Assembly (NCBI GenBank): GCA_013812395.1
Contig: JACCTL010000136.1
Location: forward strand, 1-38,959
Reading direction: 5' to 3'
Source: Euzebyaceae bacterium
GTDB taxonomy: Bacteria; Actinomycetota; Nitriliruptoria; Euzebyales; Egibacteraceae
Length of the DNA: 38,959 nt
The position numbers and the translations under genes are program-made. Shown here one piece after another: positions 6,712-15,455 of this stretch (its first letter is position 1; the number at the start of each line of letters is the position of its first letter). The notes beneath the pieces are model-generated. The model had not been told where the DNA came from and did no database searches. It saw nothing but the letters and a program-made list of their open reading frames with translations.

Positions 6712-9700
6712 TCAACGGGCGGCCGGTACCGCCTCAGTCAGCCGCTGCGAGACCACGGTGGAGACCCCGTCGGTACGCATCGTGATGCCGTACAAGCAGT
6801 CGGCGATCTCCATCGTGCGCTGCTGATGGGTGACGATGATCACCTGGCTGGTGGAGCGGAAGTCGGTCACGAGGTCCAGGAGCCGTTGCAGGTTGACGTC
6901 GTCCAGCGCTGCCTCGACCTCGTCGAGCACGTAGAAGGGCGAGGGCCGAGCCGCGAAGATCGAGAACAGGACCGCCAGGGCGGTCAGGGAGCGCTCGCCG
7001 CCCGACAACAGTGACAGCCGCTTGACCCGCTTGCCCGCCGGGCGTGCTTCGACGTCCACCCCACTGGCGAGCAGGTCGCCGGGATCGGTGAGGAACAGCC
7101 GACCTTCGCCGCCAGGAAACAGTCGCGGGAATATCCGCTGGAAGTGCCCGGCCACATCGGCGAACGCCACAGCGAACACCTCGCGGATGCGCTCGTCCAC
7201 GGCTTCGATCACCGTGAGCAGGTCGCGCTTCGATGCACGCAGGTCCTCCAGCTGACCGGTGAGGAAGCGGTGGCGCTCTTCCAGCTGCTGGAACTCCTCC
7301 AGCGCCAGGGGGTTGATCGTGCCGAGCAGGCCCACCTTGCGCACGAGCCGCTCCTCGTCCTCGGCGAGGCTGTCGGCGCGCTGGTCGCCTCCCGCCAGCG
7401 GCCCTTCCTCGGGCGTTGCACGGGCGTGGCGCAGCGCCGCATTCGGGTCGACGCCGAGGTCGTCGCGCAACCTTGCGGTGACCGCCTCCAGGGCATGCCG
7501 CAACTCCTGGCGTGCGAGATCCTCGCGGTGGCGTGACTCGCGCACGGTCGCGATCTCCTCGTCACGCTCGCGGATGCTCATACGCACCACACCCAGCTGC
7601 CGCTGCTGCTCGTCACGGGCCCGCTCAACGAGCTGCCGCTGGTGGGCGGCGTCCTGTGACGACGACTCGGCGCGTGCCAGCGCGGCTGCAGCCAGCGCCG
7701 CCAACTCGCCGCAGCGCTGGATGGCGGCCAGCCGGCGGCGGCGGCGTTCCTCCCGCTGCGCCAGCGCCTGCTCGACCGCGTCGGCTTCTGCCCGCAGCCC
7801 GGCGATGCGCCGGCCGAGCTCGTCGGCGCGCTGATCGACCGCCCCCGCCGCCAGCCTGGCTTGGACCTCACGTTCGCGGGCGGCCGTCAGCTCGTCGTCG
7901 AGCCGCTCGGCTTGGACGTCACCGCCCGGCTCTTCGCTGCCCGGCTCTGCGTCCGCCGGTGCTTCGCCCGCCGACTCGACCGGATCTGACGCATCGGCAT
8001 CCCGAGGCGGAACCGGCACCCCATCCCTGAGGGATCTTTCCCCGGCCGGCGGAACCGGCACCCCATCCAAAAGGGATCCTTCCCCGGCCGGCGGAACCGG
8101 CGCCCCATCCCGGAGAGATTCATCCCAAGCCTCGAGCTGCGCCAGCCGCTGTTGCCGGCTGGCGACCTCCTGCTCCAAGTCGGCTTGCTGGCCGGTCAGC
8201 ATCGCCAGCTCGCGCTCGCAGGTCTGTAGCTCCTTGCCGAGCCGCTTGAGTCGTTCAGCCGCGGATGTGATCAGGCCGTCAGACTCTTGCATGGCCACGG
8301 TGGCAGCCTCGAAGTCACGCTGCGCCGCCTGCAACTGTCGATCGGCTCCAGCCACCGCACCCTGCGCGCGCGGCAACTCGTCAGCAACGTCGGCCAGCTG
8401 CGCCTCGGCTTGTTCGGCGGCCTCCCGCGACAGCACCGCGCTGGCGGCGGTCGCCGACCCGCCGGACCACCCTCGCGGTCCCGCAACCTCGCCGTCCTTA
8501 CTGACGAAGACCAGCCCGGGGAACCGCTGTGCCAAGTCGGCGACGGACGCCCCGGTGTCGGCGAGATAGACGCCCTGCAGTCCCCGCGCCAGAGCGGCCA
8601 GCACTCCCGGCTCCGCGTCCAACGCCTCCACCAACGGGGTGGCGGCCTGGTCGGACAGGTCAGGAGCCTCGACCGGCTCACCGCCGTCCGCACCGGCAGC
8701 GACTAGCAACAGTGTCCGACCGTGACGGTTGGCGCGCACGAAATTGATCGCGGCGGTCGCGGCAGCTGGTGAGTCCACGATCAGGGCATCACCGAGCGGT
8801 CCGAGGGCGGCGGCAACGGCCCTCGCCTGCCCCTCGGTCACGCGGACATGGTCGACCAGCGGGCCGACCACCCCGGCAACAGCGCCGGAATCCGCCGCGA
8901 CCAGCAGCGCCGAACTGCCCCCGGTGGCCTCCCGGCCAGCGGCATGCAACGCGTCAACACGAGCCTCCAGCGACGCCCGGCGCCGCTCCAGGTCCCGCTC
9001 GTGGCGGGTCGCGGCGTCAGCCTCGTGCCGGCGGCGTGCCAAGAGTTGCTCCGCGGCCGTCAGCCGCTCGGACAGCGCCACCGTCTGCCGATCCAGGCGC
9101 TGGATTTCGGCCCGCACAGCGTCCCCGTCGCTGGCCAACTCAGCGCGACGGGCCGCAGCACCGGACACCTGGCTAGCCAGACGCCCCTCCTCACCGGCCG
9201 CCTGGGCGATCGTCGACTGCAGCGCCGACACCTGTGCCTCCCAGCGCAGCCGGCGCTCTCGCGCCTCGGCGCGGCGTCGCGCCTCGGCGGCCGCGGCTTG
9301 CTCGTGGGCGCGACGGCGCTGCTCGGCGAGCTGACGCTTGGCCACCGCCGAGTCCAGCACGCTGCGCGCCGCCATGCGCTCCTGTTCGACCCTTGCGGCC
9401 GCCTCCTGGTCCACGCCCGCCTGTGCCCGCAGCTGGGCGGGGTCCCGGCCGGCGACAGGCTCCTCGACCGCCTCCACCAGGCCGCGCCGGCGCTCGTCGA
9501 TCCGTTCACCCAACCCGCGGAAGCGTTCGGCCTGGTTGGCCAGACGAAAGTGGGTCTGGCCGATGTGCTGGGACTGGGGATCAAGGTCGGCTAGGACCTG
9601 CTCGATCGCCGCCTCGTTGGCGCGGGCGACGACCAGCTGCGATTCCAGCTGTTGCAGTTGTGTGTCGGACTCGACGACCCCGGCACGGTCTGCGTCCCAG

Positions 9701-10458
9701 CGAGAGGTCAACTCGTCCAGCGTTCGCAGCGCCAGCGTGATGCGGACCTCGCGCAGCTTGGCTTGCAGTTCGACGTGCTTGGCCGCCGCTTCGGCCTGGC
9801 GCTCCAGGGGTCGCAGATTGCGGCGCAGCTCGCGCAGCACGTCGGTGAGCCGCTCGACGTGGGCGTCCATCTGCGCCAACTTGCGCACCGCTCGTTCCTT
9901 GCGGCGCCGGTGCTTGAGGATGCCCGCGGCCTCCTCGATGAACGCGCGACGATCCTCGGGCCGGGAGTTGAGGATCGCGTCGAGTTGGCCTTGGCCGACG
10001 ATCGTGTGGTTCTCGCGCCCCAGCCCCGTGTCGGACAGCAGCTCCTGGACGTCGAGCAGGCGGCAGGCGACCGAGTTGATCGCGTAGTCGTTCTCCCCTG
10101 AGGCGAACATCGACCGCGAGACAGTGACCTCGCTGAACTCGATGGGCAGGGTGGCCGCCGGGAGCGGCGCGCCCTCGGCGCCATGGCCGTCGGGAACGGT
10201 GTTGTCGATTGTGATCTCGACGGCGGCTCGCCCGAGGCCGGGCTTTCCCCGCGATCCGGCGAAGATGACGTCGGACATCGACCCGCCTCGCAGGCTCTTG
10301 GCGGAGTGGCTGCCCAGCACCCAGGCGAGCGCATCGACGACGTTGGACTTGCCCGACCCGTTGGGCCCGACGATGACGGTGATGCCGGGCTCGAAGGTCA
10401 GCTCCGTCTTCTCAGCGAACGACTTGAATCCGCGCAGGGTCAGCGAACGCAGGAACAC
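6712..10458 (-). CDS. smc: Chromosome partition protein SMC
   Basis: 1248-residue condensin ATPase that compacts and segregates chromosomes with ScpA/ScpB. The N-terminal head carries Walker A GPNGSGKSN (31-39) and RGGSMSDVIFAGS. Two long Arg/Glu/Ala-rich coiled-coil arms flank a hinge at about 510-680. The C-terminal head has LSGGERSLTALAVLFSIF and FYVLDEVEAALDDVN. I prefer the GTG at 10458 (VFLRSLTLRGFKSFA), matching the usual M-L/Y-L-K-S-L start, over an in-frame ATG at 10488; neither has a clear ribosome site. The second arm contains an atypical insert of about 75 residues: three 14-residue repeats, then a Pro/Asp/Glu stretch (see 8006-8131). First gene of smc-ftsY-WYL. Confidence 0.96.
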   Translation of the reverse strand: MFLRSLTLRGFKSFAEKTELTFEPGITVIVGPNGSGKSNVVDALAWVLGSHSAKSLRGGSMSDVIFAGSRGKPGLGRAAVEITIDNTVPDGHGAEGAPLPAATLPIEFSEVTVSRSMFASGENDYAINSVACRLLDVQELLSDTGLGRENHTIVGQGQLDAILNSRPEDRRAFIEEAAGILKHRRRKERAVRKLAQMDAHVERLTDVLRELRRNLRPLERQAEAAAKHVELQAKLREVRITLALRTLDELTSRWDADRAGVVESDTQLQQLESQLVVARANEAAIEQVLADLDPQSQHIGQTHFRLANQAERFRGLGERIDERRRGLVEAVEEPVAGRDPAQLRAQAGVDQEAAARVEQERMAARSVLDSAVAKRQLAEQRRRAHEQAAAAEARRRAEARERRLRWEAQVSALQSTIAQAAGEEGRLASQVSGAAARRAELASDGDAVRAEIQRLDRQTVALSERLTAAEQLLARRRHEADAATRHERDLERRRASLEARVDALHAAGREATGGSSALLVAADSGAVAGVVGPLVDHVRVTEGQARAVAAALGPLGDALIVDSPAAATAAINFVRANRHGRTLLLVAAGADGGEPVEAPDLSDQAATPLVEALDAEPGVLAALARGLQGVYLADTGASVADLAQRFPGLVFVSKDGEVAGPRGWSGGSATAASAVLSREAAEQAEAQLADVADELPRAQGAVAGADRQLQAAQRDFEAATVAMQESDGLITSAAERLKRLGKELQTCERELAMLTGQQADLEQEVASRQQRLAQLEAWDESLRDGAPVPPAGEGSLLDGVPVPPAGERSLRDGVPVPPRDADASDPVESAGEAPADAEPGSEEPGGDVQAERLDDELTAAREREVQARLAAGAVDQRADELGRRIAGLRAEADAVEQALAQREERRRRRLAAIQRCGELAALAAAALARAESSSQDAAHQRQLVERARDEQQRQLGVVRMSIRERDEEIATVRESRHREDLARQELRHALEAVTARLRDDLGVDPNAALRHARATPEEGPLAGGDQRADSLAEDEERLVRKVGLLGTINPLALEEFQQLEERHRFLTGQLEDLRASKRDLLTVIEAVDERIREVFAVAFADVAGHFQRIFPRLFPGGEGRLFLTDPGDLLASGVDVEARPAGKRVKRLSLLSGGERSLTALAVLFSIFAARPSPFYVLDEVEAALDDVNLQRLLDLVTDFRSTSQVIIVTHQQRTMEIADCLYGITMRTDGVSTVVSQRLTEAVPAAR
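8006..8131. repeat. Tandem 42-bp repeat (x3) inside smc
   Basis: Units begin at 8006, 8048 and 8090 with GGCGGAACCGGC followed by (A/G)CCCCATCC. The first two are nearly identical along their length and the third has diverged at its far end. In frame they encode 14-residue units of the form SLxDGxPVPPAGE at about SMC residues 776-817. The unit is exactly in frame, so SMC stays open. Proline-rich units cannot belong to a continuous coiled coil. Confidence 0.9.
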
Positions 10459-10524
10459 GGGGCGAGTGTAACCAGTGCCTGGGGCCATTCCCGGGAGGCG
10501 AGACGCTGTCGGCGGACACAGTAA

Positions 10525-12049: not shown

Positions 12050-12096
12050 ACCTCGATCGATCTCCTGCCTGCTTGTCGCACCCTTGCGGTAGGTTA

Positions 12097-12112
12097 TCGA
12101 ACATGAGTTCGA
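12097..12112. promoter_or_regulatory. LexA (SOS) box over the DUF222/HNH start codon
   Basis: TCGAAC-ATGA-GTTCGA is a perfect palindrome matching the actinobacterial LexA consensus TCGAACnnnnGTTCGA. The ATG of the DUF222/HNH gene forms the middle of the site. SOS boxes upstream of 13E12-type genes are known in mycobacteria, so DNA-damage control of this gene is the natural reading. Confidence 0.85.
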
Positions 12113-13481
12113 GTGCAGCAGTCGTCGAGTGGCCGACCGTCGGGGCGGGGTGTCTTGGCGGGTTGGACGACGCTGGGCTGCTGGCGCACCTGGTCCAGGT
12201 CGTGCGGCGGCTGGGCGCCAACCCGCTGTCGGCGGCGGTCGATGACGACGCGTTGACCGCGTCAGTGACGGTGTTGCATCGGGTAGAGACGATGGTCGCG
12301 GCCGAGAAGCTGCGCCGCACCGGCAAGGTCGACGCTCGCAAGGCGTACGTGGGCAGAGCCATGTCCACCGCCGACTGGGCGGCATCACGACTGGGCCTGA
12401 CCCGCGGGGAAGCAAAGACCGCCACGGCCACCGCGACAGCGCTCGCCGAGTTGCCGGCGACCGCCGCGAAGCTGGCCGACGGCCGCATCGGCGTGGGGCA
12501 GGCGGCGGTCGCGGCAAGGGCGTTGGAGGAACTGCAACGGGCTCAGGAAGCCGCTGGCACACAGGGCTGCCCACCGGCCGACGACAACGACGCGGCTGGC
12601 GCCGAAGTGGCGGAGGCCGCCGTCGCCGCCGAAGCCGCAGAGGCTGCCCGTGCCGCGTTGGACGCGCTGGTCGCCGAACACGCCGGCGGTGAGGACCGCG
12701 GCCGGCTGCGCCGGCGGTTGGATGACTGGCAGTCCCGCAACGGCCACCAGGTGCTGGGTGACCGGCAACGCCGCGCGTTCGCTCGCCGACACGCCTGGCT
12801 CGGCGCCGACCCCGGTGACAGCGACGGCATGCTGCGCCTGGAAGCCCGCCTCGACGCCGTCAGCGGGGCCACCGTCCGCGCCGCACTCGAACCCCTCGCC
12901 CGCCCCCCACCCGAGCCGACGACCCCCGCAGCCAAGGGCAACGCCTCGCCGACGCCCTCGTCGCGCTCGCCGAATTGGCGCTCAACCACGGCGACCTGCC
13001 ACAAACCGCGGTTGCCCGACCCCACGTGCTACTGATCACCACCCCCAACGCACTGCACCGCGTGCCTGACGCTGACCCGTCGCTGCTCGACGGCGTCGGA
13101 CCGGTGTCGCCCGACACCGCCCGGCAGATCTGCTGCGACGCCGACATCACCCCCATCACCGTCCGCAACGGCGCCATCCTCGACGTCGGGCGCAGCCGCC
13201 GTGAGCCCACCGCAGCGCAACGCAAAGCCGTCATCGCCCGCGACCAGACCTGCGTCGGTTGCGCCGCCCCCGCCGTCCGCCGCCAGATCCACCACATCCG
13301 CTGGTGGCGCCACCACGGCACCACCGATCTGGACAATCTCACCCTGCTGTGTTGGTCATGCCACCACAACGTGCACCACAACAACTGGACCATCACTCGC
13401 AAACCCGACGGCCGCTACACCGCCCAACCACCCGGCCGACCCGACCCGCCCGACCTCACCGACCACCGACATAGCACCTGA
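12103..13481 (+). pseudogene. DUF222 / HNH-endonuclease protein (13E12 type), frameshifted
   Basis: The 5' part encodes a DUF222 domain (LDDAGLLAHLVQVVRRLG, VETMVAAEKLRRTGKVDARKA, MSTADWAASRLGLTRGEAKT) and continues into LEARLDAVSGATVRAALEPL. The matching C-terminal half is one frame away: QGQRLADALVALAELALNHG, then CVGCAAPAVRRQIHHIRWW, TDLDNLTLLCWSCHHNVHH, a zinc-bound HNH nuclease. The switch must fall at about 12895-12940, in C-rich DNA (runs of 6 and 5 C). It is equivalent to loss of one base. The upstream frame runs on as nonsense to a TGA at 13035. The cause could be a real mutation, a sequencing slip in the C-run or a programmed -1 shift. Start ATG 12103 sits in an SOS box. Confidence 0.85.
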
Positions 13482-13725: not shown

Positions 13726-14556
13726 CTATGTCTGGCAGTTGGCGCAGAAGTAGGAGTCGTGGCCTTCGACCGCCCCCCGGTGGATCGGCTGACGGCAGCG
13801 CCCGCAGGCCTCGCCCTCGCGGCCGTAGACCTTGATGAACTCGCTGGACTCGGTGTCGAAGTCGTCGTCGTCGAACTCCGGGGTCGCCTCGGTAGCCCCA
13901 CCCTGCTTGACGGCCTCGAACAAGACCTCCAGCACCGCCCGGTACAGGCGGCGGACCTCCTGGCTGGACAGGCCGGCCGACGAGCGCTGGCCCGACAAGC
14001 CCGATGCCCACAGGATCTCGTCGGAGTACAGGTCACCTAGCCCCACCACGAAGGTGTCGTCGATGAGCACCAGTTTCAGGGGCGCGTCACGTTCCCGCAG
14101 CTGCTGGCTGAACGCGGGCCAGGTGAAGGTCTCGGTCAGGGGGTCGATGCCGCCGGGCACCAGCTCAGGCAGGTTCGGCACCTCGTCGCGGGCGACGACG
14201 TACAGCTCGCCGTCCTTGGCGGGATCGACCATGTGCAAGGCCCCACCCGTGGTGAACGTCGCCACCACCGGCGTGGTCTTGCCAGCCTCGGCGGTCGCGA
14301 TCTCCCGCACGAGATTGCCCTGCGTCCCCAGGCGGACCACCAGTGCCGCTCCCTCGTCGAGCTCGAGCACCAAACTGGTGCCGAGGCGCACGATCGACTC
14401 GATCCGGCGGCCGGTCAGCGCCTTGATGAACGCAGGACGGTTGCGGTGACGGGCGACGACTGCGGTGGTCTTGACGGTAACGTCCTTGACGCGCTTGCCC
14501 ACGAGGTCGCGCTCGAGGGTCTTGCGGATGACCTCGACCTCGGGCAGCTCGGTCAC
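13726..14556 (-). CDS. Fpg/Nei-family protein lacking the catalytic residues
   Basis: 276 residues with the overall plan of formamidopyrimidine-DNA glycosylase: TELPEVEVIRKTL at the N-terminus, a helix-two-turn-helix region and a C-terminal zinc finger with Cys 251, 254, 271 and 274. The working residues are altered. The N-terminal proline nucleophile is Thr2 (GTG ACC), the Lys of the RxxK-Y segment is Thr60 (VRLGTSLVLEL), the intercalating Met is Thr78 (RLGTQG), DPRRFG is DPAKDG, GNIY is GDLY (174-177), and the zinc-finger Arg is absent (EGHDSYFC). GGAGGA precedes the GTG. It follows rnc, where mutM normally sits. Probably a DNA-binding or regulatory derivative rather than an active glycosylase. 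Confidence 0.85.
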   Translation of the reverse strand: MTELPEVEVIRKTLERDLVGKRVKDVTVKTTAVVARHRNRPAFIKALTGRRIESIVRLGTSLVLELDEGAALVVRLGTQGNLVREIATAEAGKTTPVVATFTTGGALHMVDPAKDGELYVVARDEVPNLPELVPGGIDPLTETFTWPAFSQQLRERDAPLKLVLIDDTFVVGLGDLYSDEILWASGLSGQRSSAGLSSQEVRRLYRAVLEVLFEAVKQGGATEATPEFDDDDFDTESSEFIKVYGREGEACGRCRQPIHRGAVEGHDSYFCANCQT

Positions 14557-14604: not shown

Positions 14605-15321
14605 TCAGGCCTCCTCGTCGCTGGGCGCGGACCCTACCGCCAAACGCTCCACCAAGGCACCATAGGCGTGCTCTGCGGCTGCCTGCTCGGCTTCCTTCTT
14701 GGACCGCCCGTGCCCGCTGCCAGCCACGTCACCGTCCACCGACACCCTGGCGGTGAACTGCTTGGCGTGGTCGGGGCCCTCTTCGGTGAGCTGATAGACC
14801 GGCAGCGTCGCCAACTGACCGGCCGTCAGCTCCTGCAGCGAGGTCTTGTAGTCCAGCGACGTCCGCCGGGTGGCGATCTCGTCGAGCAGGTCGCCGAACA
14901 GCCGACCGATCAGCTCGGAAGCGACTCCCTGACCGCCGTCGAGATACACCGCGCCCAGCACCGCCTCCATGGTGTCGGCGAGGATCGAGTCCTTGTCACG
15001 GCCCCCGGACTGCTCCTCGCCGCGGCCGAGCAGCACCTCCTCGCCGATCGACAAGGCGCGGGCGACCTCGGCGAGGCTGTGCGCGTTGACCGCCGCCGCC
15101 CGGATCTTGGCCAGACGTCCCTCGCTGGCCTCCGGGAAGCGCAGGTAGATCCATTCGGTGACGACGATGCCCAGGACCGCGTCGCCGAGGAACTCCAAGC
15201 GCTCGTTGGTCGGCAACCCGCCCGCCTCGAAGGCATGGCTGCGATGGCTCAAGGCCAAACGCAGCAGGTCGGGGTCGCCAAAGGCGACCTGAAGGGCCTG
15301 CTCGAGGCGGCTGCTGCTCAT
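14605..15321 (-). CDS. rnc: Ribonuclease III
   Basis: 238-residue double-strand-specific endoribonuclease that processes rRNA and other structured transcripts, acting as a dimer. The signature NERLEFLGDAVLG begins at residue 39. The second acidic cluster is in DKDSILADTMEAVLGAVYLDGG, and a C-terminal dsRNA-binding domain runs SLDYKTSLQELTAGQL to GRSKKEAEQAAAEHAY. I choose the ATG at 15321 (MSSSRLEQAL); the in-frame upstream extension is Arg/Gly-rich and unlike the family. The ATG overlaps the stop of a 45-codon ORF (ATGA), so translation may be coupled to it. Upstream gene is plsX; the Fpg-like gene follows after 48 bases. Confidence 0.96.
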   Translation of the reverse strand: MSSSRLEQALQVAFGDPDLLRLALSHRSHAFEAGGLPTNERLEFLGDAVLGIVVTEWIYLRFPEASEGRLAKIRAAAVNAHSLAEVARALSIGEEVLLGRGEEQSGGRDKDSILADTMEAVLGAVYLDGGQGVASELIGRLFGDLLDEIATRRTSLDYKTSLQELTAGQLATLPVYQLTEEGPDHAKQFTARVSVDGDVAGSGHGRSKKEAEQAAAEHAYGALVERLAVGSAPSDEEA

Positions 15322-15455
15322 GGCCGCCCCGCACGGGCGGTGGCTGCCATCGGCTCGGCCGTCCATCCGACCGAGGCCGCTGCCGCCGGCGCGGCGTCAG
15401 GCAGGCCACCGCCAGGTGGCTTACCGCCGTCCGTAGCCGGTGCCAATGTCGTCAT
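15318..15455 (-). CDS. Small ORF (45 aa) translationally coupled to rnc
   Basis: ATG at 15455, preceded by a perfect GGAGGTGA Shine-Dalgarno 4 bases upstream. It encodes MTTLAPATDGGKPPGGGLPD and then an Ala-rich segment ending TARAGRP. The TGA overlaps the rnc ATG as ATGA. The product is low-complexity Ala/Pro/Gly with no domain I recognise. It occupies the gap between plsX and rnc, where many bacteria have acpP, but is no acyl carrier protein: there is no DSL motif. It may be a leader peptide setting rnc translation, or a spurious ORF with a fortuitous ribosome site. The ribosome site and coupling are seen; the role is inferred. Confidence 0.5.
   Translation of the reverse strand: MTTLAPATDGGKPPGGGLPDAAPAAAASVGWTAEPMAATARAGRP

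Follow-up and report, generated by a model that had tools for sequence, protein, structure and literature searches.

A Catalytically Degraded MutM (Fpg) at the rnc-smc Locus of an Actinobacterial Lineage, with Signs of a Retained Polar Surface

Introduction

Bacterial Fpg, or MutM, is a textbook repair enzyme, which makes use of first-shell residues that are conserved throughout the Fpg family, i.e., Pro2 and Glu3, which are catalytic, and Lys60, Asn174, and Arg264 (B. stearothermophilus, or Bst, numbering), which hold the phosphate of the damaged base (PMC3188539). Variation on this plan has been described as a zincless finger of Fpg/Nei (PMC9266487). The nearest precedent for a relative which does not excise at all is AlkD2, a structurally intact, non-excising homologue belonging to another superfamily (PMC4433238). 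In the open-access literature searched, subscription papers falling mostly outside of it, no bacterial Fpg/Nei subfamily was described as non-catalytic, which is not proof of novelty, and precedents were found only in other superfamilies.

Considered here is a MutM homologue from a 38,959-nucleotide stretch of Euzebyaceae DNA (Actinomycetota, Nitriliruptoria; GCA_013812395.1, contig JACCTL010000136.1, positions 1 to 38,959), referred to in its entirety as ‘the window’. The genome is a metagenome-assembled one (MAG) and is 71% complete. An earlier note, made from the sequence of the window, had viewed this homologue as a catalytically dead Fpg that is kept by selection for another role. In the following, ‘class’ denotes the window's own class, from which 46 sequences were compared, and copies are described as ‘dead’ or ‘degraded’ where catalytic residues have been replaced.

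The Gene and Its Product

The gene spans 13726..14556 on the minus strand, encodes 276 amino acids, and starts with GTG, with GGAGG found 6 bases upstream. Its constant upstream neighbour, rnc (RNase III), lies at 14605..15366 (minus strand), such that the description of a full-length, well-started gene adjoining rnc was accurate. Downstream, as in the ancestral rnc-mutM-smc order, is smc (6712..10488, minus strand), though here with two opposite-strand genes in between. Between smc and the degraded gene is a DUF222/HNH (13E12-type) gene, at 12073-13481 on the plus strand, which looks frameshifted, that is, it consists of two overlapping frames, with the DUF222 N-terminal part at 12073-13035 and the remainder plus HNH at 12975-13481.

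Both Fpg domains are matched by Pfam (Fapy_DNA_glyco and H2TH), and the protein scores 199.5 bits against the fpg equivalog TIGR00577, narrowly below the cut-off of 203.3. The AF2 model has a pLDDT of 91.7 and is placed by Foldseek on Bst MutM (1R2Y) with a TM of 0.87, its sole low-confidence stretch (pLDDT <50) being residues 223-236. These fall where 8-oxoG was formerly recognised, i.e., in the one-time recognition loop of residues 219-242 (13831..13902, minus strand), which is now an acidic linker. The finger (13729..13806, minus strand) retains all four of its cysteines, C251, C254, C271, and C274. The Cys4 finger remains, and the Fpg/Nei fold is predicted to remain.

Loss of Catalytic and DNA-Contacting Residues

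Alignment to the E. coli and Bst Fpg proteins bears out every replacement that had been listed. The nucleophile, Pro2, is Thr2, within an N-terminus that reads MTEL and which retains Glu3 (14545..14556, minus strand). Lys57 (E. coli numbering; Lys60 in Bst) is T60, and the intercalation triad (Met77/Arg112/Phe114 in Bst; M74/R109/F111 in E. coli) is T78, A113, and D115. DPRRFG reads DPAKDG; GNIY reads GDLY, with Asn169 (Asn174 in Bst) becoming D175; and the phosphate-contacting Arg259 of the finger (Arg264 in Bst) is H266. To these may be added loss of His71 (now R75), which had not been listed. Besides the four zinc cysteines, retained residues include Glu3 and Glu6, these two being the exceptions to replacement of all of the first-shell catalytic and phosphate residues. 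Assembly error as the source of these changes is ruled out by a second MAG (G001), whose copy, L034, displays the same residues at 93% identity.

The losses are common to the whole class, the earlier note having asked whether a clade shares them, and so are not recent events affecting one gene. Considering P2, E3, E6, K57, N169, and R259, on average 1.5 of 6 are retained across the 46 class sequences versus 5.9 of 6 in 28 active copies from the phylum (ones filling the same place in the search, with those fetched with flanks being rnc-linked) and 6.0 of 6 in 10 second Fpg copies. Residue 2 is Thr in 20 class sequences, Leu in 19, Ser in 5, and Met and Pro in one each, with Thr2 or Ser2 common within the window's order. 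Glu3 is lost from 25 of the 46, and only rarely is Lys60, Asn175, or Arg266 kept.

Thr2 by itself was rejected as a sign of enzyme death, since removal of Met leaves the primary amine of such a Thr available, as with Thr2 of T4 endonuclease V or Val2 of NEIL3. The claim of catalytic death is based instead upon K60, N175, R266, H75, and the intercalation triad all being lost together, and upon Leu2 in place of Thr2 in much of the clade. A glycosylase or AP lyase of altered chemistry, with the Thr2 alpha-amine, or instead that of the initiator Met, attacking a different lesion, would be consistent with the Thr2/Ser2 of the window's order, with Glu6 retention, with the nucleophilic N-terminal Thr and Val just cited, and with rnc-linked MutM copies of families f12 and f48 that start at Met in the Pro position but are otherwise intact. 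A Thr2-amine enzyme nevertheless is made unlikely by Leu2 in 19 of 46 sequences and by the near-universal absence of Lys60, Asn175, and Arg266; with Glu3 so often missing, the triad gone, most of these positions variable, and the protein negatively charged, we view altered chemistry as very improbable. The f12/f48 copies themselves (L078, L079, L205, L206, L208, and L209; MELPEVE, with the likely initiator, ATG or GTG, in the place of Pro2) possibly represent a natural, Pro-less, active Fpg, one in which Met1 would supply the N-terminal amine.

Judged from sequence, the rnc-linked copy has lost the known catalytic equipment, Glu3 and Glu6 excepted, as well as its DNA face.

Descent and Locus

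A close orthologue of the window gene is present in every class relative that is at least 90% complete. Among 20 loci whose flanks were fetched, whether the copy was active or dead, the FPG gene adjoins rnc in all 20, smc falls within the fetched stretch in 19 (the exception, L164, being an active copy), and the wider order rsmD-coaD-rnc-FPG-smc is seen in most. Degraded copies, from five groups, are found at 14 of the fetched loci, and at all 14 the gene occupies the rnc-FPG-smc slot. The window gene itself occupies the mutM slot of rsmD-coaD-rnc-mutM-smc and is placed by the tree among rnc-linked MutM proteins, as expected of a MutM orthologue. Given a slot that is constant across active and dead copies, the dead gene is the descendant of mutM, with the working Fpg being the other copy. 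The window gene is best read as its lineage's own rnc-linked mutM, passed down vertically and converted to a pseudoglycosylase.

The Second Fpg

A normal Fpg, which the earlier note had proposed searching for, does exist in the window's genome. This protein, L001, is fully canonical (MPELPEVESVRRQLAP, Lys, HLGMTG, DVRRFG, GNIY, and the finger Arg). The genome also encodes a Nei-type protein, L003 (MPEGHTIH).

Loss of catalysis is linked more generally to presence of a second Fpg. Outside of the class, a canonical, DVRRFG-type Fpg is found elsewhere in 20 of 20 tested genomes possessing a degraded rnc-linked copy, though frame-broken in two of these (G134 and G164, both f6 genomes), versus in 0 of 21 tested genomes with an intact rnc-linked copy; within the class the second Fpg is found in 11 of 13 tested genomes, and within f75 alone the split is 5 to 4 (presence with degraded versus absence with intact), all being counts from related genomes and so not independent trials. 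The frame-broken sequences are L189 (G134:C6) and G164:C3:133037-133364, for which assembly error or real loss are both possible.

G049 (78% complete) has a dead Fpg only. In G022 (96% complete) the single H2TH-family protein is the dead one, which is also zincless but for which an Fpg fold is still predicted (pLDDT 90.7, TM 0.85). MutY-like proteins remain in G022, scoring below the mutY cut-off as they do in all relatives tested, and whole loss of 8-oxoG repair there is unsupported given their presence.

In two f17 genomes (L155 in G086; L193 in G100), rnc is followed by a tandem Fpg-like pair, the degraded copy plus a gene of another subfamily (HLSLGGR, GVGNAWSDD). Duplication within this pair as the origin of the dead copy was rejected, as the neighbouring copy is of that different subfamily.

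Purifying Selection

Across seven genome pairs, dN/dS of the dead gene is 0.11-0.25 (Nei-Gojobori), versus 0.07-0.24 for rnc and 0.05-0.23 for the active Fpg in the same pairs. For the pair that includes the window's own genome, the dead gene has the lowest value of the three. The dead gene is full length in relatives, and its invariant sites persist at 38-65% identity. It is held, that is, by purifying selection as strictly as is a working gene, and the claim of selection rather than decay is sustained, with values far from the neutral figure. Decay was rejected based on this similarity to rnc and to intact Fpg. What are seen are the attributes of a pseudoenzyme: purifying selection, absence of catalytic residues, and an active paralogue alongside.

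The gene could instead be a relic, a dying leftover kept by its operon position, i.e., because of polarity or of translational coupling that links rnc to smc. The run of genes is operon-like and once-universal residues have drifted, but polarity would leave amino acids unprotected, and this explanation is difficult to reconcile with a dN/dS as low as that of rnc, with full length, with sites that remain invariant at such divergence, or with survival of the dead protein in G022, from which every other member of the family has been lost. We consider it hardly credible.

An Abandoned DNA Face and a Conserved Stripe

Mean net charge is -10 for the class's dead proteins versus +7.5 for active rnc-linked copies and +8.9 for the second Fpg. 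Excluding the loop, whose own charge averages -7.7 for the class and -2.1 for rnc-linked copies that are active, the corresponding values are -2.9, +8.8, and +10.4. The mean pI of the dead proteins is near 5.5. Proteome-wide acidity, as with salt adaptation, was rejected because the intact Fpg copies found in this class are basic. First-shell contacts of the DNA-binding face are free to vary, with positions now variable in the class including the catalytic and DNA-contacting 266, 113, 60, 75, 78, and 115. One suggestion of the earlier note, a DNA-binding or repair-scaffold role exercised via the Fpg DNA face, is consequently not supported as worded: the face in question has been scrambled, and the protein has turned acidic while the class's intact Fpg stays basic. 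Catalytic loss and retention under selection are supported, as are the sharing of these changes by a clade and the presence of a normal Fpg at another place in the genome.

Other positions, by contrast, are held tighter than in active enzymes, Q199, W146, R206, E210, K217, R202, R255, and R253 among them. A nine-site set, picked after looking, consists of W146, Q199, R202, R203, R206, E210, K217, R253, and R255. All nine are present in 46 of 46 class members, and eight or nine in f6 and f17 as well as in seven dead copies of f65, f68, f88, and f75; close active relatives average 7.7, and every other kind of Fpg about 2. Six of the nine fall within helix 198-217 (13906..13965, minus strand). 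There Q199, R203, R206, E210, and K217 lie at 141-179 degrees from the hydrophobic side, with R202 at approximately 119, forming what is, given those angles, an invariant stripe on the helix's polar face.

An out-of-sample set of 17 lineage-specific sites, overlapping but not identical to the nine, was chosen from comparison of the class with far Fpg only and then scored in the seven dead copies of other groups. Retention there is 0.82 for the lineage-specific sites, 0.29 for 13 active-site positions, and 0.53 for all sites, versus 0.89, 0.98, and 0.76, respectively, in active sisters. As gauged by conservation, then, one polar surface has been retained while the DNA face was lost.

This stripe may be interpreted in more than one way. 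It could form a new nucleic-acid-binding face, with R202, R203, R206, K217, R253, and R255 contacting RNA or non-B DNA, perhaps along with RNase III, and the old lesion groove abandoned. Such binding would be in keeping with six of the nine positions being both basic and invariant in an otherwise acidic protein, and with rnc as constant neighbour. E210 and W146 are equally invariant, however, and a mean pI near 5.5 is also not what would be anticipated, such that we hold a new binding face to be rather unlikely. The stripe may also be turned inwards, against the finger, as a packing feature of the lineage. On a further reading it would be nothing more than such a feature, and the retained function would be some other property of the fold, e.g., weak binding of AP sites or branched DNA without excision. 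AlkD2, a retained homologue of a glycosylase that does not excise and binds DNA weakly (PMC4433238), supplies a precedent, and the stripe sites are indeed common to active relatives; retention of the DNA face below that of the average site (0.29 versus 0.53), together with an inverted charge, renders this further reading quite improbable.

Probable Repeated Losses

Degraded copies outside of the class were sought in a survey of the phylum plus a class survey around one outlier, with groups given as family codes. They are found in three places on the tree. The window's class is grouped with f6 and f17; a second place holds f65, f68, and f88; and the third is a portion of f75, the remaining members of which are intact. 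Parsimony on the tree gives at least 3 changes of state, though starred branches alone force no more than one, and losses of catalysis probably have been independent between groups. The losses are alike, with the Asn of GNIY becoming Asp or Pro and with the Lys, Met, Arg, and Phe drifting. Copies from f6 keep Pro2, and in some cases Lys57, and look intermediate between active and dead.

Zinc ligands are lost as well in f3 (L029, L041, L042, L046, and L053), in one f4 member (L115), and in f65/f68. R253 and R255 persist where the adjoining finger Cys has been replaced (DARSR, SPRSR, SLRSR). The degraded copies without finger cysteines, which have been lost several times, include L089, L093, and L094 as well, with the two arginines in between persisting throughout.

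Separately, a widespread actinobacterial Fpg-like subfamily (L213-L216, L218-L221, L223, and L224) retains Pro2 and Lys57 but displays HLSQGGR/FGTER/GIGRGYSDD instead of HLGMSG/DPRRFG/GNIYADE, along with a changed finger Arg. L111 (G098, f15) retains Pro2, Lys57, Asn169, and the finger Arg, with DPRRFG as DQTGFS and HLGMSG as QLKIGG.

Interpretation

The explanation that we favour, with a probability of roughly 0.55, is that this pseudoglycosylase has been kept for an older, non-catalytic contact made by the stripe, W146, and R253/R255. Under that explanation rnc-linked MutM in this group of actinobacteria would already have possessed a second, non-catalytic job prior to dying as an enzyme, one in which the helix 198-217 stripe (Q199, R202, R203, R206, E210, and K217), W146, and R253/R255 contact a partner. 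Once another Fpg had taken over excision, only the stripe contact would have been maintained. The stripe's function would have been present while the enzyme was still active. Against the explanation, close active relatives share most stripe sites by descent. The dead protein probably does have a second job. RNase III or SMC, as constant neighbours, might be the partner, but this is a guess from position alone.

More broadly, and only tentatively, the MutM of the rnc-smc locus may be bifunctional, with its excision half dying whenever another Fpg takes over and the older stripe role kept, as may have occurred about three times on the tree. Repeated catalytic loss in combination with an otherwise invariant surface would imply a second function that is hidden in active enzymes too, and it supplies specific residues to mutate. 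There is also a warning, in that what these organisms encode at the mutM locus is something other than their working Fpg.

Comparison with Known Systems

With bacterial Fpg/MutM (TIGR00577; 1R2Y) the window protein shares a predicted fold, the H2TH domain, the finger, and a genomic slot. It differs in that first-shell residues other than Glu3 and Glu6 are replaced, in being acidic, and in scoring below the equivalog cut-off. Within the same superfamily, NEIL3, with Val2, and the zincless-finger NEIL1 and plant Fpg indicate that such proteins can do without Pro2 or without zinc ligands. NEIL3 and zincless Fpg/Nei nevertheless keep Glu3, the Lys, and contacts with the damaged phosphate, and are active enzymes. 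AlkF and AlkG, of HEAT-like repeat fold, are likewise relatives of a glycosylase that lack alkylpurine excision and are kept beside an active paralogue. So too is AlkD2 (PMC4433238), of the same HEAT-like repeat type. The fold of these latter three is unrelated, however, and they are without a DNA-recognition helix, whereas the window protein's fold is complete and it is the active site which has been hit. Furthermore, unlike with AlkD2, AlkF, or AlkG, it is the dead copy that occupies the ancestral locus in the window's lineage.
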